From: Thalassospiraceae bacterium LMO-JJ14
GTDB lineage: Bacteria; Pseudomonadota; Alphaproteobacteria; Rhodospirillales; Casp-alpha2
Assembly (NCBI GenBank): GCA_021555105.2
Contig: CP134604.1
Location: forward strand, 558,001 to 622,000
Direction of reading: 5' to 3'
DNA: 64,000 nt
Part shown: one piece after another, positions 1-58,480 of the stretch
How the letters are laid out: each line of letters starts with the position of its first letter
How positions within the stretch are numbered: position 1 is the first letter of the stretch
The notes under the pieces: generated by a model
Seen by the model: the letters and a program-made list of their open reading frames with translations, nothing else
The model's database searches: none
What the model was told of the DNA's origin: nothing
Program-made: the position numbers and the translations under genes

Positions 1-973
1 TTTTGATTGTCGCCAGAGCGGCGACGGGGCCCACTCTTTCGGTCCAGTACGCGCTGGAGATGAACGAGCTTTGCGCCGAATCCATGACCGCGCGCTTGCC
101 GATACATGCCGCCATCGGATAACCGTTGCTCATGCATTTGGCGAAGGTCGCGACGTCCGGCGTAACCCCCATCGTCATGTGAATACCGCCCGTCGTCATG
201 CGCCAGCCCGACGTGACTTCGTCGAAAATCAGGACCGCGCCTGCTTCATCGGCAAGCCGGCGCGCTTCCTCGAGAAAACCCGGTGCCGGCGGGAGCGTGC
301 GCATCGGTTCCATGACGATGGCGGCCAACTCCGATTTTCGGGCGGCCACGATGGCGCGCAAATCTTCAATGTCGTTGTAGGCAAACGGAAATACCGTGCC
401 GCCAAGGCGGCTGGGAACACCGGCGGATGGAATGCCGGCCAACAAGTGGTTGTCGAGATTGGAGTCGTCACTGATGTTCGCCGCGACATACCAGTCGGCC
501 CAACCGTGGTATCCGCAGTAGGCCACGCCGTCACGACCTGTCGCGGCCCGGGCGATCCGCACCGCGATCGACAACACTTCCCCCCCCGTCCGGGCGAAAC
601 GCGCCATGTCCGCCCATGGATGACGATCAATGAGCAATTCGGCGAGTTCGACCTCTTCGTGGCAATTGAGCGTCGTCATCGTCCCTTTGGATATGGCCTC
701 GGCGACCGCCGCGTTTACATCCGGGTCGGCATATCCGAGTGCGGACGTGCCGACACCGCAGTGGGTGAAATCAAAGTACTTGCGCCCATCGAGATCCCAC
801 ACCTCGGCCCCGCGCGCCTTCTCGAAATATGCAGGCCATTGATCCGGCAAAAACATTTCCGGACGCTTGGAAAGCAACTGCGTGCCGCCGGGCATGATGT
901 TCCGGGCCGCGGCATACAGCGCCTGGCCCTTGCCGGTTGCGGGGGTCGTTTTGTCGTGTTTTTTTGTGCTCAT
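1..973 (-). CDS. PLP-dependent class III aminotransferase (glutamate-1-semialdehyde aminomutase-like), 3' end outside window
   Basis: I translated this frame by hand; it is open from ATG 973 to the window edge, about 324 residues. It belongs to fold-type I, class III PLP enzymes. An N-terminal stretch resembling MPGGTQLLSKRPEMF is followed by VWDLDGRKYFDFTHCGVGTS, then IFDEVTSGWRM with the PLP-contacting Asp, and ATFAKCMSNGYPMAA, whose Lys should form the Schiff base. SSAYWTERVGPVAALATIK, typical of this subgroup, is the last part visible. The start codon overlaps the stop of the cytidylyltransferase-like gene as ATGA, so the two are translationally coupled. Homologues occur in nonulosonate or flagellin-glycan clusters, which suggests transamination of a sugar precursor rather than heme synthesis; that role is inferred. 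Confidence 0.88.
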   Translation of the reverse strand, partial: MSTKKHDKTTPATGKGQALYAAARNIMPGGTQLLSKRPEMFLPDQWPAYFEKARGAEVWDLDGRKYFDFTHCGVGTSALGYADPDVNAAVAEAISKGTMTTLNCHEEVELAELLIDRHPWADMARFARTGGEVLSIAVRIARAATGRDGVAYCGYHGWADWYVAANISDDSNLDNHLLAGIPSAGVPSRLGGTVFPFAYNDIEDLRAIVAARKSELAAIVMEPMRTLPPAPGFLEEARRLADEAGAVLIFDEVTSGWRMTTGGIHMTMGVTPDVATFAKCMSNGYPMAACIGKRAVMDSAQSSFISSAYWTERVGPVAALATIK

Positions 974-8459: not shown

Positions 8460-9155
8460 ATGGTTATCCATACATCCGATGCACTCAATGCGCGCTTCGC
8501 AACGCAATCGGCTCAGGACATCGTCGGCGTGGCGGTCACCGAGCTGTTCCCCGAGCGCATTGCCCTGGTCTCGTCTTTCGGCACGGAATCCGCGGTTCTT
8601 CTGCACATGATCGCCCGCATCGACCGGGCCACCCCTGTGTTGTTTCTCGATACCCTGAAGCATTTCAATGAAACGCTCGACTATCGTGATCGCCTGATCG
8701 CCCGGTTGCGCCTGGAAGACGTGCGCAGCATACGGCCGGCCACGAGCGATATCATCGCCCGGGACCCGGACGGCATGTTGTGGGCGCGCGATGCGGATGC
8801 CTGCTGCGATCTCCGGAAAACCCGGCCGCTGGCCGATGAAATCATGCGTTTCAAGGCGCTGTTTACCGGCCGCAAGCGCCATCATGGCGATACCCGGGCG
8901 CGGCTTGATTTTTTCGAAGACGACGGTGCGCGCATCAAGGTCAACCCGCTGGTGCACTGGCACGCCGGGGATGTCGGTGCTTATCTTGAAAAGCACGGTT
9001 TACCGGCCCACCCGCTCAGGGATCAGGGCTATCCCAGCGTCGGTTGCGCGGTTTGCACGTCCAGGGTCTCGGCAGGCGAGGATTTTCGCGCCGGGCGCTG
9101 GCGCGGCAGCGGCAAGGTCGAATGCGGGCTGCATAAAAGTCAGGACGGCAGTTGA
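8460..9155 (+). CDS. cysH: Assimilatory adenylyl-sulfate (APS) reductase, [4Fe-4S] type
   Basis: 231 residues of the PAPS/APS reductase family. SSFGTESAVLLHMI (about 38-51) is the nucleotide-binding P-loop-like motif. The paired cysteines C115-C116 and the CAVC pair C196/C199 are the iron-sulfur ligands that mark APS-using rather than PAPS-using enzymes. KVECGLH near the C-terminus holds the catalytic Cys (C222). It reduces APS to sulfite with thioredoxin. GAG a few nt upstream acts as a weak ribosome site. First gene of the cysH-cysD-cysNC operon, with a 102-nt gap to cysD. Confidence 0.93.
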   Translation: MVIHTSDALNARFATQSAQDIVGVAVTELFPERIALVSSFGTESAVLLHMIARIDRATPVLFLDTLKHFNETLDYRDRLIARLRLEDVRSIRPATSDIIARDPDGMLWARDADACCDLRKTRPLADEIMRFKALFTGRKRHHGDTRARLDFFEDDGARIKVNPLVHWHAGDVGAYLEKHGLPAHPLRDQGYPSVGCAVCTSRVSAGEDFRAGRWRGSGKVECGLHKSQDGS

Positions 9156-47902: not shown

Positions 47903-47984
<82 letters not shown>

Positions 47985-47987
<3 letters not shown>

Positions 47988-49037
47988 ATGACTTACAGCC
48001 ATTTTCAACGGTGGAGAATTTTCCACTGTGCCCGAAATGTGCCCAAATGAATTCTGGCGCTGATCGAGTACGCGGATAGCGGCCTCCTGAAATTCGGGGG
48101 CCAGGTGGGCATATCGCTGCACCATCGACAGCGACTTGTGCCCGGTGAGGTTCATCACCTCGTAGAGCGGCACGCCGCCCTGCACCAGACGCGATGCAAA
48201 CGTGTGCCGGAGATCGTGAAAGCGGAAGTTTTCTATTCCCGCCCGTTCGCAGGCTTTGGCAAACGATGACCGCATGTCCTTGACGGCCCTGCCGCCCCAC
48301 GTGAACACGGGGCCGCTTTCCTTGGGGCCAAGGGCCAGCAGGGTCCGGTAAGCGCGTTCACAGAGCCTTACAGAGCGGTCTTCGCCGTTCTTGGTTTCCA
48401 TGAACGTGACCCGCCGTGACGCCAGATCGACGTTGCGCCAGTCCAGCCCCAAAAGCTCACCCCGTCTGCCGCCGGTATCGACGGCAAAACGGATCAAAGG
48501 CTTCAAGTGCGATGCGGCTGCCATGACGAGGCGTTCTTCCTCCTCAAACGTCAGCCAGCGGTTGCGGGGCTTGGACGGTTTCAGCCTCGGAAAGTTCGGC
48601 ACGAAGTCCGTTCGTTCTTCCCGCCGTGCCATGTTGATGGCGGCACGGACGATGGCCAGATCGGCAAGGCACATGGCGGACGAGACGGACTCTAACCGTT
48701 CGTCGACAAATGCCTGTACGTTGCGGTACGTGAAGTCGGAAACGTTCCATCCTTCGAACCGTTTCGCCAGATACCGGATTCTGTATCGTGTCTTGGCCAT
48801 GAAGTTCTTCGTGTTATCCCGTTTCTTTGCCTTGGCGTATCGTAACAGGGCTTCGGAAAACGGAAGTTCGGGTTTCTTCCCGAAATGATCTTCCAGAAAA
48901 TCTTCCTGTACCCATTTGGAAACCAGCGCTTCGGCTAGCTTCCGGTCGTCAGTCCCAGTACTTCGGCGATGTCGCTTTCCGTCCTGGTTCCATGTCGCCC
49001 ACCATTGGGACGAGTTCTTGCGTTTGTAGAGTCGCAT
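47985..49037 (-). CDS. Tyrosine recombinase (phage-type integrase)
   Basis: 350 residues from ATG 49037, with GAGGAGA 9 nt before it. The N-terminus RLYKRKNSSQWWATWNQDGK is an arm-binding-like start; a SAM-like core-binding domain follows (NFMAKTRYRIRYLAKRFEGW). The catalytic residues are visible: R in DTGGRRGELLGLDW, Lys loop FMETKNGEDRSVRL, HDLRHTFASRLVQ (H-x-x-R), GHKS and MVQRYAHL (Tyr nucleophile). Its stop codon lies in the att core, and its 3' end contains two TGTGCCC sites. Confidence 0.95.
48027..48044 (+). promoter_or_regulatory. Left arm-type integrase sites (paired TGTGCCC)
   Basis: TGTGCCC starts at 48027 and 48038, 11 bp apart and in the same direction, inside the 3' end of the integrase gene about 40 bp from the att core. 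The same pair with the same 11-bp spacing occurs twice near the right end. Confidence 0.6.
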
Positions 49038-49258
49038 ATTTGCCGTCTCCTCAAATCCGAGGTTCGGGCGCTGTCGCACCGTTTAGTATCGTTGGCGTAC
49101 TGAACGATGTCCACAACGTCCCAGCGTTTTGTTCGGGGGCCGAAATCGCAAAAGGGGATGTCGAGCGTGTTGAAGGTATCGACGGACACACCCAGCCACG
49201 CCGCCGCCTCATCGCGGGCGAGGTATCGTCTGGGTGGCAGGGTCGTCTCAACTTTCAA
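48935..49258 (-). CDS. Excisionase/AlpA-like small DNA-binding protein
   Basis: 107 residues from TTG 49258. The N-terminal half RRYLARDEAAAWLGVSVDTF followed by CDFGPRTKRWDVVDIVQY is a MerR-type winged helix as in phage excisionases. It overlaps the integrase start by about 100 nt in another frame, so the two genes are co-transcribed. Direct excision control is inferred from position. The stretch after residue 60 may be poorly conserved. Confidence 0.7.
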   Translation of the reverse strand: MKVETTLPPRRYLARDEAAAWLGVSVDTFNTLDIPFCDFGPRTKRWDVVDIVQYANDTKRCDSARTSDLRRRQICDSTNARTRPNGGRHGTRTESDIAEVLGLTTGS

Positions 49259-49365
49259 ACGTACAAATCCCGTATCTGCTCGAATCGTTCCTTAAGCAGT
49301 GGATGCTTTAGGAAACCCTTGGGTTCGCGAATGGTCTAAGCGAAATGGCATTGCCGGGTCGAATG

Positions 49366-49952
49366 CCTTTAAAGGGAAATATTCCTTTAAAGGAATCCGG
49401 TCCCTTTAAAGGCAAAGAGCAATTTTATTTCGTTTTGGGATTTTCCCTTTAAAGGAAACTTTTTTAACAAACCTGTCATTTGCTCCACCTTTCATGCCAA
49501 ACCTCGAACCGCGCTAACGCGAAACCGTCTGCAATAATTCTTGCCGTATACGGAGCACATCTCAGGACCGGTTGTCGCGGTCCCGTATACGTATACGGGA
49601 ATGGTGGTCGTTTGAGTGTGTTCGGGGGCTGATTTCCGTATACGGCGATTCGCGTATACGGAACTGAATGGGGGCGTCTCGCAGGTATACGTATGGGTGC
49701 AGGAAAATGTCAGAATGATGAGTTTCTTTGATACACATGATTGAGCCTTAACCAGACACGCGAGCCTTTCCCGCAGGATGGCCCATAGTTTTACCGATCT
49801 GTAGACCGAGCCTTAAGCTTAAGCTTAGGAAACAGTGACGCCCCTTAAGCTTAAGGTGGAGCGAATCGGAATACGTAAGCTTAAAAAGCGAAATATTAAT
49901 CGGATAGACACTCGCCCAAACAACCCCTTAAGGTTGTCCCGTCTTTAAAGAC
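49366..49952. repeat. Three-block palindrome array before hsdR
   Basis: Block A: CCTTTAAAGG at 49366, 49384, 49403 and 49446 (four exact copies; the second is inside the 16-bp palindrome ATTCCTTTAAAGGAAT), plus GTCTTTAAAGAC at 49941 just before the hsdR ribosome site. Block B: CCGTATACGG at 49544 and 49636, the 20-bp palindrome TCCCGTATACGTATACGGGA at 49581, GCGTATACGG at 49652 and GGTATACG at 49684. Block C: CTTAAGCTTAAG at 49812, CCTTAAGCTTAAGG at 49843, TAAGCTTA at 49876 and CCTTAAGG at 49926. 49340-49963 has no gene. The blocks may be operators, iterons or hairpins. Confidence 0.88.
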
Positions 49953-49963
49953 GAGGGGGCTCA

Positions 49964-52723
49964 ATGCCAACGCCGGAGGATAAGGCGCGGGAGGTTATCG
50001 ACGCTCAGCTTGATGCTGCGGGTTGGGATATCCAGGATATGGATAAGTTCAACCGTAATGCCGCGTTGGGCGTGGCCGTGCGCGAATTCTCGTTACCGAG
50101 TGGCCCATGCGATTATCTTTTGTTCGTCGATGGCAAGGCGGCAGGCGTCATCGAAGCGAAAAAAGAGGGCGTCACCCTAAGCGGTGTATCGGATCAGTCC
50201 GAAAAATATATGAGCAAGCTGCCAGATCATCTGGCGCGGTGGGCCGATAGCCTGATTTTCGACTATGAAGCGACCGGCACGGAGACGTTATTCCGTGACA
50301 TGCGCGATCCAAATCCGCGTTCGCGTCGCGTCTTTGCATTTCACAGGCCGGAAACGCTTCTTGCCTGGTTGAAACAGGACAAATCCTTAAGGGCCAAGCT
50401 CACGGAAATGCCCGATTTAGACGAGCGCGGCCTTCGCGATTGTCAGGTCGATGCAATCACCGACCTTGAAAAATCACTCGCTGCCGACAAACCACGCTCT
50501 TTGATTCAAATGGCGACGGGTGCGGGGAAGACATTCACCGCGTGCACGTTCTGTTATCGGCTGATCAAGAACGCCGATGCCAAACGCATACTTTTTCTGG
50601 TCGACCGCAACAATCTGGGCGATCAAACGTTGCGCGAATTTCAGGCATTTCAGCCGCCCGGCACGGCAAACCGCTTCAGCGATACCTACATTGTGCAGCA
50701 CCTGCATGTGCGGCGAATCGATCCTGACGCCAAGATCGTGATTACGACGATCCAGCGCCTGTATTCGATGCTACGGGGCCAGGACTTGCCCGAGGAAGAC
50801 GAAGAAATCTCCGGCTTCGAGAAATGGCAGGGCGATGATGATGAAATACCGCCGCTCGCCTATAATCCCGAAATCCCTATCGAGACATTCGATTTCATCG
50901 TCACTGACGAATGCCACCGGTCCATTTACGGACTATGGCGACAGGTGCTGGAATACTTCGATGCGTCGATCATCGGCCTGACGGCGACCCCGTCAAAGCA
51001 TACGCTGGGGTTCTTCAATCAGAACCTTGTGGCCGAATATCCGTATGAACGCTCCGTCGCCGATGGCGTCAACGTCGGCTACGAAGTCTATCGAATCCGC
51101 ACCCGTGTGACCGAACAGGGCGGCAAGGTTGAAACCGAGGAGGCAGGTTTCCAGGTGCCGGTGCGTGACAAGCGCACCCGCAAGGTTCGCTATGAAACGC
51201 TTGATGCCGATCTGGAATATACCGCCAAGGAACTGGACCGATCCGTCGTCAATCCCAACCAGATCAGAACCGTGCTGCAGACGTACAAGGACAGGGTCTT
51301 TACCGAACTGTTCCCCGAACGCACGGGCGAATGGCTGCCCAAGACACTGATCTTCGCCAAGGATGACAACCATGCCGAAGAGATCGTCACCGCCGTCCGA
51401 GAAGTCTTTGGCGAGGGTAACGACTTCGCCAAGAAGATCACGTACCGCAACACGGGCGAGAAGCCGAAACAGATGATCAAGGCCTTCCGTGTTGACCCGT
51501 TCCCGCGCATTGCCGTGACCGTCGACATGATCGCAACGGGGACCGACATCAAGCCGGTCGAAGTGCTGATCTTCATGCGTGACGTTAAATCCGAAGGCTA
51601 TTACGAGCAGATGAAGGGGCGCGGTGTCCGCACCATCCCCGATGCCGATCTTCAAAGCGTCACGCCGGATGCAAAAACAAAGACCCGGTTCATTTTAATT
51701 GATGCGGTCGGGGTGTCGGAGACCAAAAAGAACGCCAGCCAGCCGCTTGAGCGCAAAAAATCCGTCAGCTTCAATGCGCTGATCGATCAGATCGCCATGG
51801 GCAGGCGGGACGAGGATGCGCTGTCGTCCCTTGCCGCGCGGCTTGCCGTGCTGGACCGTAATTTGGCCGACGAAGACCGTGCCCGTATTGCCGAGGTGAC
51901 AGGCGGCAAGACACCGCGCGATCTGGCCAACGATCTGCTGGACGCCATCGACCCGGACAAACAGGAAGCGGCCATCCGGGCCAAGTATATAATGCCGACG
52001 CAAACGGAGGAACAGCAGGTCATCGACGAGATGACGGAAACCGCCTGCCGCTCCTTCGATGACCCGGACGCGCGCAATCTGCTAAAAGACATCAAGCAGA
52101 AAACCGACATCGTGATCGACGAAATCACCACGGACGAGGTCACGGGCGCGGGCTTCGACAAGAAGCAGGCCGAAGCCACGGTCACCAGCTTCAAAAAGTT
52201 TATCGAAGACAACCGCGACGAACTGACGGCATTGCAGATTCTTTATAACCAGCCGCAGGGACGGCAGAAGTTGACCTATGCCGAGATCAGGGAGCTGGTC
52301 ACTGTCATGACGGAACGCCCCCCGCATCTGACAACGGCGACGGTCTGGCAGGCCTACAAGCGGCTTGATGCTGCCAAGGTGCGCGGCGCACCGGTTGATG
52401 AGCAACTGACGGAGGTTGTCAGTCTTGTCCGCTTCGCGCTGGGCCAGGCGGACGTCCTTGAACCTTTCGGGGCGGTCGTCGAGCAGCGCTTCAACCTGTG
52501 GATGGGGCGCGAAAAAAAAGCTGGCCGGGTATACTCAAAGGAACAGGAGGGCTGGCTTCGTGACATCGCGTCCTTTATTGCTGCCAATGCGGAAATCGCG
52601 CCGGGTGATTTTCAGGATGTACCGAGCCTCGCCGACCGGGGCGGCATCCTGCAGGCGCGCAAGGTATTGGGGCCGAACTTGAACGACATGCTGGATGATC
52701 TGCAGGGGGCGTTGGTGGCGTGA
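49964..52723 (+). CDS. hsdR: Type I restriction enzyme subunit R (EcoEI-like)
   Basis: 919 residues. The N-terminal nuclease has DYLLFVDGKAAGVIEAKKEG (E64-x-K66, PD-ExK). The helicase core has SLIQMATGAGKTFTACTFC (Walker A, about residue 182), FDFIVTDECHRSIYGLWRQV (DECH) and IIGLTATPSKHTLGFFN, and motif VI lies in MKGRGVRTIP. The C-terminal part (about 700-919) matches the EcoEI R C-terminal domain. It translocates and cuts unmodified DNA. It is the first gene of the operon, which is unusual for type I systems; GAGGGGG is its ribosome site. Confidence 0.95.
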   Translation: MPTPEDKAREVIDAQLDAAGWDIQDMDKFNRNAALGVAVREFSLPSGPCDYLLFVDGKAAGVIEAKKEGVTLSGVSDQSEKYMSKLPDHLARWADSLIFDYEATGTETLFRDMRDPNPRSRRVFAFHRPETLLAWLKQDKSLRAKLTEMPDLDERGLRDCQVDAITDLEKSLAADKPRSLIQMATGAGKTFTACTFCYRLIKNADAKRILFLVDRNNLGDQTLREFQAFQPPGTANRFSDTYIVQHLHVRRIDPDAKIVITTIQRLYSMLRGQDLPEEDEEISGFEKWQGDDDEIPPLAYNPEIPIETFDFIVTDECHRSIYGLWRQVLEYFDASIIGLTATPSKHTLGFFNQNLVAEYPYERSVADGVNVGYEVYRIRTRVTEQGGKVETEEAGFQVPVRDKRTRKVRYETLDADLEYTAKELDRSVVNPNQIRTVLQTYKDRVFTELFPERTGEWLPKTLIFAKDDNHAEEIVTAVREVFGEGNDFAKKITYRNTGEKPKQMIKAFRVDPFPRIAVTVDMIATGTDIKPVEVLIFMRDVKSEGYYEQMKGRGVRTIPDADLQSVTPDAKTKTRFILIDAVGVSETKKNASQPLERKKSVSFNALIDQIAMGRRDEDALSSLAARLAVLDRNLADEDRARIAEVTGGKTPRDLANDLLDAIDPDKQEAAIRAKYIMPTQTEEQQVIDEMTETACRSFDDPDARNLLKDIKQKTDIVIDEITTDEVTGAGFDKKQAEATVTSFKKFIEDNRDELTALQILYNQPQGRQKLTYAEIRELVTVMTERPPHLTTATVWQAYKRLDAAKVRGAPVDEQLTEVVSLVRFALGQADVLEPFGAVVEQRFNLWMGREKKAGRVYSKEQEGWLRDIASFIAANAEIAPGDFQDVPSLADRGGILQARKVLGPNLNDMLDDLQGALVA

Positions 52724-54156
52724 TGGATGTCAATCTGCCAAATGGATGGAGCATCACCTCACTTGATAAATTTACGCAAACTCGGGGAAGTTCGATCAAC
52801 CCTGCCAAATCTCCAGACGAGGTTTTCGAATTATACTCAGTGCCAAGCTATGACATAGGAATGCCCGAGAGCACACTTGGATCAGAAATAGGCTCATCCA
52901 AACAGGCCGTTACGCCTCTGAGTGTGCTCCTTTGTAAAATTAATCCTCGGATTAACAGATCGTGGGTTGTCGGAGAGGCTGCCGGTTATCGACAGATAGC
53001 CTCCACTGAATGGATAGTATTCCCGCCTTCTGATGCATATGAACCAGAATATCTTTGCTATTTTCTCCGCCAACATTCCGTAAGAGACTATTTGGCGCAA
53101 AACGTCTCTGGCGTTGGCGGCTCACTAATGCGAGTTAAAGCGTCGACGCTTAAGGATTTTCCGTTTCCAGTCGCACCGCGAGTCGAGCAGCGCCGCATCG
53201 TTGAGAAGATCGAGACGCTGTTCGCGCGTCTGGACAAGGGAGAGGAAGCGCTGCGCGAAGTGCAGAAACTTCTCGCGCGATATCGCCAGTCCGTCCTGAA
53301 GGCGGCCGTTACCGGCCAGCTTACCGCCGATTGGCGCGCTGAGAACGCTGACCGGCTGGAACATGGTCGCGATCTGCTCGCCCGCATTCTGGAAACCCGC
53401 CGCGAACAATGGTCAGGCCGGGGCAAATACAAGGACCCCGCCGAGCCAAATAATAATTATATTGTCACGCCTGATGGATGGGCGACGGCATCGCTTCAAA
53501 TGGTGTCTCATAAAGTCACTGATGGTACACACCAGTCTCCAGAGTTCGCCGATTCTGGTATCCCGTTCATCGTGATCGCGAACGTAAAAAAAGGCCGGAT
53601 AGATTGGTCTTCGGTCAACAAGTGGGTTTCCATAGAGACATATGCTGAGCTGACCCGGAATTGCATGCCCGAGAAAGGCGACATTTTATATACGGCAGTT
53701 GGTTCATATGGCATTGCGCTGCATGTAGTGGATGATCGTCCATTTGTTTTCCAAAGACACATTGCACATATCAAACCCCTAAACGGGGTCATGAATCCTG
53801 ATTTCTTGGTGCTTGTTCTCAACTCCCCGCAATCACTAAAACACGCACACCAAGTTGCGAGAGGCGTCGCTCAAAAAACGGTTACTCTTGGTGAGCTTTC
53901 TCAATTCTTGGTTCCAATTCCTTCAACGGAGGAACAAGCCCGGATCGTAGATATCGTTGCTGAAAAAACCTCGCAAAATGATGCTCTCGAAACTTGGTGC
54001 CAAGCTGAGCTAAAGCGCTCCAACGCGTTACGCCAATCCATCCTGAAAGACGCCTTTGCGGGCTGTCTCGTTCCGCAAGACCCAAACGACGAACCCGCCG
54101 CAGAACTGCTTGCACGCATCAAAGAAGAGGGTGCGCGCGGCGCAGCTCGCACGTAG
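52723..54156 (+). CDS. hsdS: Type I restriction-modification specificity subunit S
   Basis: 477 residues; ATG 52723 overlaps the hsdR stop (GTG 52720 also possible). Two target recognition domains (about 1-145 and 230-395) each end in the conserved helical spacer: VEQRRIVEKIETLFARLDKG, with LLARYRQSVLKAAVTGQLTA, and later EEQARIVDIVAEKTSQNDAL, with LRQSILKDAFAGCLVPQDPN. Both recognition domains are AT-richer than the spacers, as expected for exchanged domains. Bipartite target not deducible. Confidence 0.94.
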   Translation: MDVNLPNGWSITSLDKFTQTRGSSINPAKSPDEVFELYSVPSYDIGMPESTLGSEIGSSKQAVTPLSVLLCKINPRINRSWVVGEAAGYRQIASTEWIVFPPSDAYEPEYLCYFLRQHSVRDYLAQNVSGVGGSLMRVKASTLKDFPFPVAPRVEQRRIVEKIETLFARLDKGEEALREVQKLLARYRQSVLKAAVTGQLTADWRAENADRLEHGRDLLARILETRREQWSGRGKYKDPAEPNNNYIVTPDGWATASLQMVSHKVTDGTHQSPEFADSGIPFIVIANVKKGRIDWSSVNKWVSIETYAELTRNCMPEKGDILYTAVGSYGIALHVVDDRPFVFQRHIAHIKPLNGVMNPDFLVLVLNSPQSLKHAHQVARGVAQKTVTLGELSQFLVPIPSTEEQARIVDIVAEKTSQNDALETWCQAELKRSNALRQSILKDAFAGCLVPQDPNDEPAAELLARIKEEGARGAART

Positions 54157-54166
54157 GAAGGTCCGC

Positions 54167-54892
54167 ATGTCAGAGGCCAAAAAGATCGATCCAGAATTGT
54201 TGCCGTGGGTGTGGGCATTGCGCGAACAGATACATCTGCTTGACGGTGGCGATGGATTTTATGTCGAGCAAGCGCGAGCGGGGTGGCGGGAGCCAGCGAA
54301 CTGGCTCCCGCCGAGCGCAAGAGCGTCGAAATATTCGGGGACGGAATGGCCGTTCGATCAGTTCCTGAAGGCGTATGGGCTGAAGCGTGGTGATGCTGCG
54401 ACATTTTTTTCGGATGCGGAGAATCTCCGCGAGTTTAAACGTATTTGTGCGAATCGATTTTCTGGCCCGTTTAGCAGCCTGGATGATGCCGGACGAAGGT
54501 GGGAGGCGGCCATCAAGGACACAAAGGCTGCGAGTTGCCCAGCCAACCTCGCCTCGGCCACTTCAAAGGTCTTTTGGTGTTATCATCCGGACAAACTCTC
54601 AATGTATGATGCCTATGCCCGAGGTGCGCTAGCGCGTCGTGCAAAGGGTCGTTGGGTCAAATATCTAAAAGATCTGTCAGAGACAAATTTTATTGAGGTG
54701 TTTGAGGAATTTTTTGAAAAAGACGCCAAGCCATTCATTCAGCAAGCAGAGCATTTTTCCGACCGACATTATCCCTACCCGCGACGAGTTGCAGACAAAT
54801 TTCTATGGCTCAACGGCAGCGGCAGGCAGGATGCGATCTTGCAGCGATTTAAAGCAGGCTTGGACCAAGGGCGGTATAAGCAATGGAAATAA
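54167..54892 (+). CDS. Unknown protein embedded between hsdS and hsdM
   Basis: 241 residues from ATG 54167, with AGGAAGG before it. I do not recognise the family. Visible features: LLPWVWALREQIHLLDGGDG, WPFDQFLKAYGLKRGDAATF, SATSKVFWCYHPDKLSMYDA, RRAKGRWVKYLKDLSETNFI and a basic C-terminus. The S-K-x-x-W-x-x-x-P-x-x-x-x-x-Y-D pattern resembles segments in other defence-island proteins of unknown function (from memory). No nuclease, methylase or P-loop motif. It is AT-richer than hsdR and lies in the middle of the R-M operon, 83 nt before hsdM, so a role tied to restriction is likely but unproved. Confidence 0.75.
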   Translation: MSEAKKIDPELLPWVWALREQIHLLDGGDGFYVEQARAGWREPANWLPPSARASKYSGTEWPFDQFLKAYGLKRGDAATFFSDAENLREFKRICANRFSGPFSSLDDAGRRWEAAIKDTKAASCPANLASATSKVFWCYHPDKLSMYDAYARGALARRAKGRWVKYLKDLSETNFIEVFEEFFEKDAKPFIQQAEHFSDRHYPYPRRVADKFLWLNGSGRQDAILQRFKAGLDQGRYKQWK

Positions 54893-54975: not shown

Positions 54976-56406
54976 ATGACCAACGAACAACTCGTCTCGA
55001 AAGTCTGGAACTATGCGCATGTGCTGCGCGATCAGGGTATTTCCTATGGCGATTATATCGAGCAGATCACCTATCTGCTGTTCCTGAAAATGGATCAGGA
55101 GCGTGAGGACCTGTTGGGCGAAACGTCCGCCATCCCGCCAGAATGGAGCTGGGCACAGTTGGCGAACAAGGACGGTGACGCGCTGGAACTGCAGTACCGT
55201 CACACGCTGGAAAACCTCGGCAGCGAAGAAGGGCTGATTGGCACGATCTTCAAGAAGGCGCAGAACAAGCTTTCCGATCCTGCCAAGTTGACGCGCATCG
55301 TCAGTCTGATCGACAAGGAAGGACCGTGGGTCGGTCTTGAGGTCGACGTGAAAGGCGAGATTTACGAGGGACTGCTGGAACGCAACGCATCGGAAGTGAA
55401 ATCCGGGGCCGGTCAGTACTTCACGCCACGCCCGGTGATCGAGGCCATCGTCAAATGCGTCGACCCGAAGATCGGTGAAACCGTCTGTGATCCGGCCTGC
55501 GGTACAGGCGGTTTCTTGCTCGCGGCCTACGATCATATGAAAGGTCAGTCTCAGGATCGCACCAAACTACGTGACCTGCGTCATACGGCTTTCACTGGGA
55601 TTGATATCGTCGATGAGGTTGTCCGTCTGTGCGCGATGAACCTTTACCTGCATGGCGTCGGCAATGGTGGCAGTCCGGTACACCAGGGCGATGCGTTGGC
55701 CAATGACGGTGGTGAGCGCTTCAAGGTGGTGTTGACCAATCCCCCGTTCGGCAAGAAATCCAGTTACAAGATCGTCGGTGAAGACGGATCAATCACGACC
55801 GAGACCGAAAGTTACGAACGCGAGGACTTTAAGTTCACCACATCGAACAAACAGTTCAATTTTCTGCAGCACATCATGACGATTCTGGAAGCGAACGGTC
55901 GTGCCGGTATCGTGCTGCCAGATAATGTGTTGTTCGAAGCGGGCCGTGCCGGCGAAGGTATCCGCAAACGATTATTGGAAGGCTTCAACTTCCATACGCT
56001 GCTACGCCTGCCGACCGGTATCTGGTACAGCCCTGGCGTGAAGGCGAATGTCCTTTTCTTTGACAAGCGCCCGGCGTCAAAGGACGTGCAGACTAAGGAA
56101 CTCTGGGTCTACGACTACCGCACAAATGTGCACAAAACGCTGAAAACCAAACGGCTTGCCAGCGCCGATCTGGATGATTTCGTCAAATGCTATCGCGAGC
56201 GCAAGGAAACGGAGCGCTTCAAGCGGTTTACGTATGATGAGCTCGCCAAGCGCGACAAGCTGAACCTCGATATCTTCTGGCTTAAGGACGACAGCCTCGA
56301 AGACATCGACAGCCTGCCGGAGCCGGACATCCTCGCTGCCGAAATCGTCGAGAACCTTGAAAGCGCACTGGAACAATTTCGGGGTGTCGCTGAGGAGTTG
56401 GAGTGA
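54976..56406 (+). CDS. hsdM: Type I restriction-modification methylase subunit M
   Basis: 476 residues. QYFTPRPVIEAIVKCVDPKI leads into DPACGTGGFLLAAYDHM (SAM motif I) and TGIDIVDEVVRLCAMNLYLH; VVLTNPPFGKKSSYK is the NPPF catalytic motif for N6-adenine methylation. The N-terminal HsdM helical domain (VWNYAHVLRDQGISYGDYIE) is complete. It stands after the unknown gene with an 83-nt gap and no strong ribosome site. Confidence 0.95.
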   Translation: MTNEQLVSKVWNYAHVLRDQGISYGDYIEQITYLLFLKMDQEREDLLGETSAIPPEWSWAQLANKDGDALELQYRHTLENLGSEEGLIGTIFKKAQNKLSDPAKLTRIVSLIDKEGPWVGLEVDVKGEIYEGLLERNASEVKSGAGQYFTPRPVIEAIVKCVDPKIGETVCDPACGTGGFLLAAYDHMKGQSQDRTKLRDLRHTAFTGIDIVDEVVRLCAMNLYLHGVGNGGSPVHQGDALANDGGERFKVVLTNPPFGKKSSYKIVGEDGSITTETESYEREDFKFTTSNKQFNFLQHIMTILEANGRAGIVLPDNVLFEAGRAGEGIRKRLLEGFNFHTLLRLPTGIWYSPGVKANVLFFDKRPASKDVQTKELWVYDYRTNVHKTLKTKRLASADLDDFVKCYRERKETERFKRFTYDELAKRDKLNLDIFWLKDDSLEDIDSLPEPDILAAEIVENLESALEQFRGVAEELE

Positions 56407-57476
56407 TGGCAGCGAAAAAGCCGGTGGACAAGATTGAGAAATATTTTTGCAACCCGTGCGGCCATAAAACCAAGCACTTTGTGCGCGGTGAATACTCACT
56501 CACTGAGCATGATGAGCATGAGGTCGTCAGCTTTACACAAAGGTGTTTAATCGTTGAGTGCTGCGGCTGTGAGAATTTGGCTCTGATCAAAAAAACACAT
56601 TTCTCTGAAGACGAGGACTATGCGCAAGATCCTCGTACAGGAGAATGGGAATTGTTGCCACGTTGGGAAGAGGCAATCTATCCACCTGTGACCTATCGTA
56701 ATCCTCCACCTTGGTTCGGCGATCTGCCGGATGAAATCCTCCTCAAGGTATCCGGTGAAATATATAAGTCACTTCAATCAGAATCCTATTTCTTGGCAAC
56801 CTTTGGCTCCCGAACTCTTTTGGATCGGCTGATCTTGTTGACAGTTGGAGATCAGAAAAATTTCCAGGATGGCCTGAAGGCGCTCCTGGATGAAGAAAAG
56901 ATTTCTGCAAGTGAAATGGAAATCTTAAACTCGGTGATTCAGGCTGGCCACGCGGCAGCGCATCGCGGTTGGGCGCCTTCGAAAGACCAACTTTTTACAA
57001 TTCTAGATACGGTAGAGGGTTTGATCCACCGTTTGTTGGTCCTCCCTAAACTTTCGGAAGAATTGGATGAATCGGTGCCAACGCGTGGTGGTGCTGCCAA
57101 AGTAGGCGGAGTGAAGCAGGTTGCCACTACTTTGGAGAAGATCGAGAAGGCACCGAGGACGTTGCGTGCAACCTACGAAAAACTGGCAGAGATATTAAAA
57201 GGCATGGGCGAGGATGTTTCTGTTCATCCGCAGAAACATTACATCGCGTTTCGTCGCAACCGGAACTTCGCATCAGTTCAAATCTATAACCAGAAAAAAG
57301 TCATTCGAGCTTATCTGAATCTGAATCCTGACGAGCTGGAAATTGACGAGTCGTATATGCGAGATGTGCGACAAGTCGGTCATTTCGGCACTGGTGATCT
57401 TGAAGTAACGATCCGCACGAACAGGGATATTGAGCGGTGCGTGGAACTTCTTAAAGCGAGCTACGAAGCATCGTGA
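56406..57476 (+). CDS. DUF4145 and DUF5655-like domain protein
   Basis: 356 residues; ATG 56406 overlaps the hsdM stop. A Cys-bearing N-terminus (KYFCNPCGHKTKHF, CLIVECCGCENLAL) resembles a zinc ribbon. Residues about 100-215 match the DUF4145 helical domain (YFLATFGSRTLLDRLILLTV, IQAGHAAAHRGWAPSKDQLF). The C-terminus (RRNRNFASVQIYNQKKVIRA and RQVGHFGTGDLEVTIRTNRD) matches DUF5655. DUF4145 proteins often accompany restriction and other defence operons. Function unknown. Confidence 0.82.
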   Translation: MAAKKPVDKIEKYFCNPCGHKTKHFVRGEYSLTEHDEHEVVSFTQRCLIVECCGCENLALIKKTHFSEDEDYAQDPRTGEWELLPRWEEAIYPPVTYRNPPPWFGDLPDEILLKVSGEIYKSLQSESYFLATFGSRTLLDRLILLTVGDQKNFQDGLKALLDEEKISASEMEILNSVIQAGHAAAHRGWAPSKDQLFTILDTVEGLIHRLLVLPKLSEELDESVPTRGGAAKVGGVKQVATTLEKIEKAPRTLRATYEKLAEILKGMGEDVSVHPQKHYIAFRRNRNFASVQIYNQKKVIRAYLNLNPDELEIDESYMRDVRQVGHFGTGDLEVTIRTNRDIERCVELLKASYEAS

Positions 57477-58168: not shown

Positions 58169-58232
58169 CGCAGTTAAAGCCTTCGAAACGACCCAGCATA
58201 AACAATCCGCAGCTTCTTTGCAGTTAACGCAC

Positions 58233-58320
58233 TGTGCCCAGACTGTGCCCAAATACTCCGTAATTCTCCCGGCCTTCGCATGTGAATAGCGACAGTAGAA
58301 TCTGTGCCCAAACTGTGCCC
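58233..58320 (+). promoter_or_regulatory. Right arm-type integrase sites (two pairs of TGTGCCC)
   Basis: TGTGCCC begins at 58233 and 58244, and again at 58303 and 58314: two pairs, each with 11-bp spacing, 70 bp apart, in the same orientation as the left pair. They lie about 110-195 bp from the right att core. 58169-58426 has no gene. Confidence 0.65.
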
Positions 58321-58426
58321 CGGCTATTCCATTTTAATCCCGATTATCCCCTTTTGTTCCGGTTTAGCGTGCGACAGCGCCCGAACAAGTTGCTGATATT
58401 AAAGGGTTTCTAAGTTCCCGAAGCCT

Positions 58427-58480
58427 TTCGCAATGCGAAGGTCAGGGGTTCGATTCCCCTCGGCTCCACCAATCTTTTCA
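58427..58480 (+). other. attR: second copy of the 54-bp att repeat
   Basis: Identical to 47934-47987. It carries only the 3' half of tRNA-Ala(CGC) from the anticodon loop, without a 5' half, so it is not a functional tRNA. It marks the right end of the element; motB ends 4 nt beyond it. Confidence 0.93.

Follow-up and report, generated by a model that had tools for sequence, protein, structure and literature searches.

IncP-1 plasmids possess an operator network for KorA, KorB, and TrbA, in which the KorA operator has the sequence TTTAGCTAAA (PMC2680271). The locus described here is a gene-free stretch of about 600 bases (49366–49953) in a window of 64,000 nucleotides, the whole stretch of DNA that was analysed. 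It shares with the IncP-1 network short palindromes that may serve as operators at the promoters of backbone genes in mobile DNA, and related elements of the f23 host family (L043, L044, L046, and L048) use a word with the TTAGCTAA core of the KorA operator. Unlike the IncP-1 network, the window contains no TTAGCTAA word, its island has neither a recognised kor-like gene nor a recognised HTH regulator besides a xis-like protein, and several words are in use among the elements examined. All coordinates are positions within the window, and where elements are compared with each other "window" stands for the island inside it.

With tRNA islands carrying a tyrosine integrase and an excisionase of the RdfS/AlpA type, the island has in common the integrase, a small winged-helix protein that may be an excisionase, a tRNA target with a 54-bp repeat, and defence cargo. 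What sets the present family apart from them are palindrome arrays of 0.6–0.9 kb upstream of xis which switch their words, and no description of such arrays was found in the literature searched. In C-box controlled restriction-modification (R-M) systems palindromic operators are likewise located close to the restriction gene, but in the present case no C protein was recognised and the arrays track the integrase, not the restriction genes. A counterpart to the autoregulated operators of RHH proteins is found in a viral contig, where an RHH_1 gene has a palindrome with CCGTATACGTATACGG right at its start, whereas no RHH protein was recognised in the window island.

The Island and Its Palindromes

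The palindrome region sits in an island of 10.5 kb with a 54-bp direct repeat at either end, integrated in a tRNA-Ala gene (Table 1). A PF00589 gene adjoining this tRNA and the identical flanking repeats mark it as a tRNA-integrated island of a tyrosine integrase. The leftward genes int and xis-like are followed by the palindromes and then by hsdR, hsdS, an unnamed frame, hsdM, a DUF4145-DUF5655 gene, and a last frame. According to an alignment of integrases the conserved start of int is probably the ATG at 49037. A relaxase, expected of an integrative and mobilizable element, was not found among the eight island proteins examined. Several TGTGCCC direct repeats at 58229–58320 near attR have counterparts close to the right ends of L035 and L041. 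In addition, a protein of L046 (11933–13003) resembles the DUF4145-DUF5655 protein in start and length, both being encoded behind type I restriction genes.

Table 1. Features of the island, with positions in the 64,000-nucleotide window.
Feature	Position	Strand	Remarks
tRNA-Ala(CGC), integration target	47903–47978	+	ARAGORN; Rfam RF00005
attL, left copy of 54-bp direct repeat	47934–47987	+	100% identical to 58427–58480; overlaps tRNA-Ala
Tyrosine integrase int	47985–49079	-	PF00589, 1.1e-28
xis-like small winged-helix protein, excisionase candidate	48935–49258	-	overlaps int start
GTTCGGGCGCTGTCGCAC, 18-mer, candidate integrase arm-type site, copy 1	49062–49079	+	
Block A, four CCTTTAAAGG palindromes	49366–49455		adjoins xis start; CCTTTAAAGG starts 49366, 49384 (within 16-bp ATTCCTTTAAAGGAAT), 49403, 49446
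Block B, CGTATACG palindromes	49544–49694		CGTATACG starts 49545, 49584, 49590, 49637, 49653; 49584/49590 pair forms 20-bp palindrome TCCCGTATACGTATACGGGA at 49581–49600; related ATACGTAT at block end, 49687
Block C, CTTAAGCTTAAG, TAAGCTTA, and CCTTAAGG palindromes	49811–49935		CTTAAGCTTAAG starts 49812, 49844; TAAGCTTA also 49820, 49876; CCTTAAGG 49926
Palindrome CGTCTTTAAAGACG (14 bp) at hsdR start	49940–49953		ends ten bases 5' of hsdR ATG (49964)
hsdR, first cargo gene	49964–52723	+	PF04851, PF08463; PADLOC REase_I
hsdS	52720–54156	+	PF01420; PADLOC Specificity_I
239-aa frame	54173–54892	+	no named match
hsdM	54976–56406	+	PF02384, PF12161; PADLOC MTase_I
DUF4145-DUF5655 protein	56403–57476	+	PF13643, PF18899; PADLOC PDC-S18
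Last cargo frame, 231 aa	57473–58168	+	no named match
GTTCGGGCGCTGTCGCAC, copy 2, inverted	58369–58386	-	near attR
attR, right copy of 54-bp direct repeat	58427–58480	+	

The gene-free stretch holds 18–19 perfect palindromes of at least 8 bp, where shuffled sequences have about three. Compared with dinucleotide shuffles there were 18 palindromes of at least 8 bp (mean of the shuffles 2.8), 11 of at least 10 bp (0.7), and 6 of at least 12 bp (0.2), and none of 2000 shuffles reached as many at any of these lengths. A repeated core is common to 16 of the palindromes, with 0.07 expected and no such case in 500 shuffles. The original prediction of four palindromes in block A, five in block B with two of them fused to 20 bp, a block C, and one more palindrome at the ribosome site of hsdR was borne out at every place. 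Between the copies of a word in one block the flanks are unrelated, while the word itself is repeated exactly. A consensus scan of 49200–50000 gave no sigma-70-type promoter. By eye, a frame of 30 codons with a possible ribosome site can be read through block A (49387–49479, minus strand), and it has no frameshift in L033.

It appears very improbable that hairpins or cruciforms, and not sequence-specific protein sites, are the reason why the palindromes are kept. The dyad does extend at least 3 bp past the repeated 8-bp core in 22 of 74 sites as compared to about 1.8% of 6895 control palindromes. A hairpin has no need, however, for exact identity of the words within a block, many sites are just 8–10 bp long and leave no room for a loop, and an Rfam search of the palindrome region yielded no RNA family.

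The original prediction had also considered an origin or partition-like site. The arrays resemble iterons and lie in DNA richer in A+T than usual (46–51% G+C versus about 60%), and their stacked sites are reminiscent of iterons and centromeres. Such features would fit a site in the excised circle at which replication or transfer starts, or one that acts in partition. Neither a Rep nor a ParA/B gene could be recognised among the island genes, so this proposal found no support; with the relaxase missing as well among the proteins examined, and with separate blocks of different words being unusual for iterons, we regard it as improbable.

The Arrays Follow the Integrase Family

Related integrases were sought in 317 genomes of the order and in public collections, and those with at least 50% identity were taken as the family. 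The 750 bp upstream of int were scanned for repeated palindromic cores. Such cores were found at 13 of 17 family integrases but at only 5 of 128 others, which were mostly distant integrases among the matches listed in a contig profile search with the integrase alignment (Fisher p 1.5e-11). The four family members L008, L009, L011, and L015 had no repeated core. The 16-mer CCGTATACGTATACGG, which belongs to the fused palindrome of block B, was found six times when the 317 genomes were searched for it; five of these sites lie upstream of family integrases, the sixth in a provirus-like stretch of genome G166. In the genome of the window itself another integrase of the family, of more distant relationship, is encoded at G000:C1:679809–680843 (L033 from 13810) and preceded by a CGTATACG array; near L033:11880–12100 there is also part of a second xis-int start.

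The cargo behind the family integrases is mostly restriction-modification, with matches to R-M models in the window, L041, L043, L046, L048, L049, and L050. L277 carries capH/capP-like genes, and the sole protein scanned in the cargo of L035 gave a weak CARF-like match. The array is missing from homologues of hsdR (46–48% identity) which are not accompanied by a family integrase, but present at the one homologue that follows such an integrase. A promoter feature of hsdR is thereby rejected, and a promoter layout of type I R-M systems is not supported, as the arrays track the integrase family whatever the cargo. From the original description as a region upstream of hsdR the gene-free array at this place is retained, but it is not specific for hsdR and lies between the leftward int-xis genes and a cargo which varies from element to element. 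The array is a component of the head module of the island, together with int and xis.

These comparisons also make it extremely unlikely that a restriction circuit of the C-protein kind controls hsdR via these sites. Block C and the 14-bp palindrome are indeed located at the hsdR start. Among the island genes, however, none was recognised as C-protein-like or XRE-type, so that substrates of restriction control, another suggestion of the original prediction, gained no support, and hsdR homologues elsewhere do without such arrays. Moreover, the CTTAAG/AAGCTT words precede a nucleotidyltransferase-like gene in L033, as judged by reading its translation, and the capH/capP-like pair in L277.

Replacement and Conservation of the Palindrome Words

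In the position of block A the words differ between elements. CTTTAAAG is found in the window and L035, CCTTAAGG in L277, CCCTAGGG in L049 and L050, and TTAGCTAA in L043, L044, and L048, and further elements use other words. CGTATACG words, in turn, recur across the family. Arrays with other words at the same place in related islands suggest swappable docking sites for regulators.

Within pairs of elements the palindromes are better kept than their surroundings. Between L049 and L050 identity is 133/142 (94%) in palindromes versus 261/348 (75%) outside (p 6e-7), and between the window and L033, which reside in the same genome, it is 102/114 (89%) versus 163/229 (71%) (p 1e-4). A lack of conservation in sibling elements, which would have told against the original prediction, was therefore not observed. 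The alignment of L049 and L050 runs to the last block B palindrome and diverges directly behind it, where the cargo differs.

The array does not simply follow the integrase. The int DNA of the window and L035 is 94% identical, while the array region is at 50%, near the level of shuffled sequences (44–47%). With L033 the relation is reversed, int being 59% and the array region 77% identical. A tree of the integrases joins L033 to L049 and L050 (97/92), with the window on the far side of the deepest split (100/100). Judging from these alignments changes of the array need not go along with changes of int. As a likeness of arrays exceeding that of int was seen once, for the window and L033, and was absent in the co-resident pair L044 and L046, exchange of arrays is not claimed as a rule. 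For the same reason, with one pair in favour and the other against, we do not claim that words follow the host.

In the 3.89-Mb genome CCTTTAAAGG occurs four times, always within 49366–49953, as compared to 14 copies of its reversed control word, and both copies of CTTAAGCTTAAG lie in block C. The original prediction also withstood the comparison with the rest of the genome, since the words are not equally frequent elsewhere and exact CCTTTAAAGG and CTTAAGCTTAAG are exclusive to the region. No other gene of the chromosome is therefore visibly regulated via these exact words, and a host regulator which uses identical words elsewhere is ruled out. CGTATACG is present in 52 copies versus 77 for its control word, and dense clusters of it are confined to the palindrome region and the second integrase at 679.8 kb (L033).

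Exact repetition within the blocks, unrelated flanks, conservation of the words, and words specific to the element make operators of dimeric regulators, as the original prediction had proposed, the best reading. We consider it somewhat more probable than not that the palindromes are operator arrays for such regulators in the control region of an integrative element which carries restriction genes. The absence of further exact CCTTTAAAGG and CTTAAGCTTAAG copies from the chromosome, the negative promoter scan, and the four family members with no repeated core speak against this reading. Binding of proteins, repression of xis-int, and an origin of the regulators outside the element are what we infer; in the island no regulator gene other than that of the xis-like HTH protein was recognised. 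The region would then be the control part of a head module of integrase, excisionase, and palindrome arrays in a family of small tRNA-integrated islands. Each palindrome word would probably be bound by a dimeric protein, with the sites stacked several deep. Block A, adjoining the leftward xis-int start, would keep excision off. Block B with its CGTATACG words and the fused CCGTATACGTATACGG is the part most widely common to the family and ends near the cargo start, and block C lies at the presumed cargo promoter.

Possible Sites for the Recombination Proteins

The element's own integrase and excisionase might also be the proteins that bind the block B words, or perhaps all of them, in an extended attP-type nucleoprotein region which sets the direction of recombination. 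We take this to be unlikely. In its favour, Int and Xis are the two proteins found to be common to the elements compared, and the CGTATACG words recur in their family. The xis-like protein has no Pfam match and weak PHROG matches. Its AlphaFold core has a pLDDT of about 80 and resembles the excisionases RdfS (8dgl) and Pukovnik Xis (4j2n) in Foldseek with an rmsd of 1.0–1.5, but the matches are weak, with E values of 0.13–0.26. This core is strongly conserved in 16 family members while the block A words (CTTTAAAG, CCCTAGGG, and TTAGCTAA) vary, which makes the xis-like protein an unlikely binder of block A; it is a possible binder of block B.

In addition, the arrays are more than 1 kb away from the att core, and GTTCGGGCGCTGTCGCAC, which is inverted at the two island ends, is a better candidate for the arm site. 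Its 16-base core occurs in many family loci, twice in L033, L035, L041, and L050, and in L035, L041, and L050 at both ends of the element. From this distribution GTTCGGGCGCTGTCGCAC is likely the arm-type site of the integrase.

Possible Sources of the Regulators

If the palindromes are operators, the fast evolution of the words and their change independently of int and xis indicate that the regulators are probably supplied in trans. An RHH_1 search of the window's own genome gave no match above the cut-off, which counts against operators and eliminates a host RHH protein as the regulator. One further proposal, operator piracy, is that islands with no recognised repressor stay silent by means of arrays of operators for repressors of helper replicons such as conjugative plasmids and proviruses. 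Excision would occur upon induction of the helper and the words would be exchanged as helpers change. It would account for the shared vocabulary of words including the KorA-like TTAGCTAA word, for CGTATACG palindromes in the provirus-like L295 and the CCGTATACGTATACGG palindrome at the RHH gene of L287, and for the fact that the rest of the host chromosome lacks two of the words in exact form. We consider it a quite unlikely explanation.

When similar DNA was searched in plasmids and phages no plasmid matched, and the phage matches were two records of one Gordonia phage with 32 bases at chance level. As operators in viral contigs of IMG/VR the words were not convincing, since CGTATACG pairs are so common that chance explains most of them. 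Pairs of CCTTTAAAGG were present in five contigs with no shared context visible. A literature search by palindrome word listed matches which, by their titles and the starts of their abstracts, looked unrelated.

Should the arrays be operators, this family has regulatory regions whose DNA-binding specificity switches fast, uncoupled from the recombination genes under their control, and for which no cognate regulator was recognised on the element. The family could then be used to find out directly what governs how restriction-modification islands spread, and whether these islands respond to signals from other mobile elements.

Some observations in other elements are added here. In the viral contig L287 the RHH_1 gene (378–527, minus strand) has the 32-bp palindrome AATATCCTCCGTATACGTATACGGAGGATATT, which contains CCGTATACGTATACGG, at its start. 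L295 (G166:C67:46500–66000) carries two palindromes centred on CGTATACG, GCTCCGTATACGTATACGGAGC and TTCCGTATACGGAA, with the words at 9021 and 10238; reading of its translations gave coat-protein-like and packaging-ATPase-like genes. In L051 (6787–7900) a dense CRISPR-like array of GTTGCGGATTGACCGGGATTTCTGAATAGCTACAC with differing spacers is located upstream of an integrase fragment.
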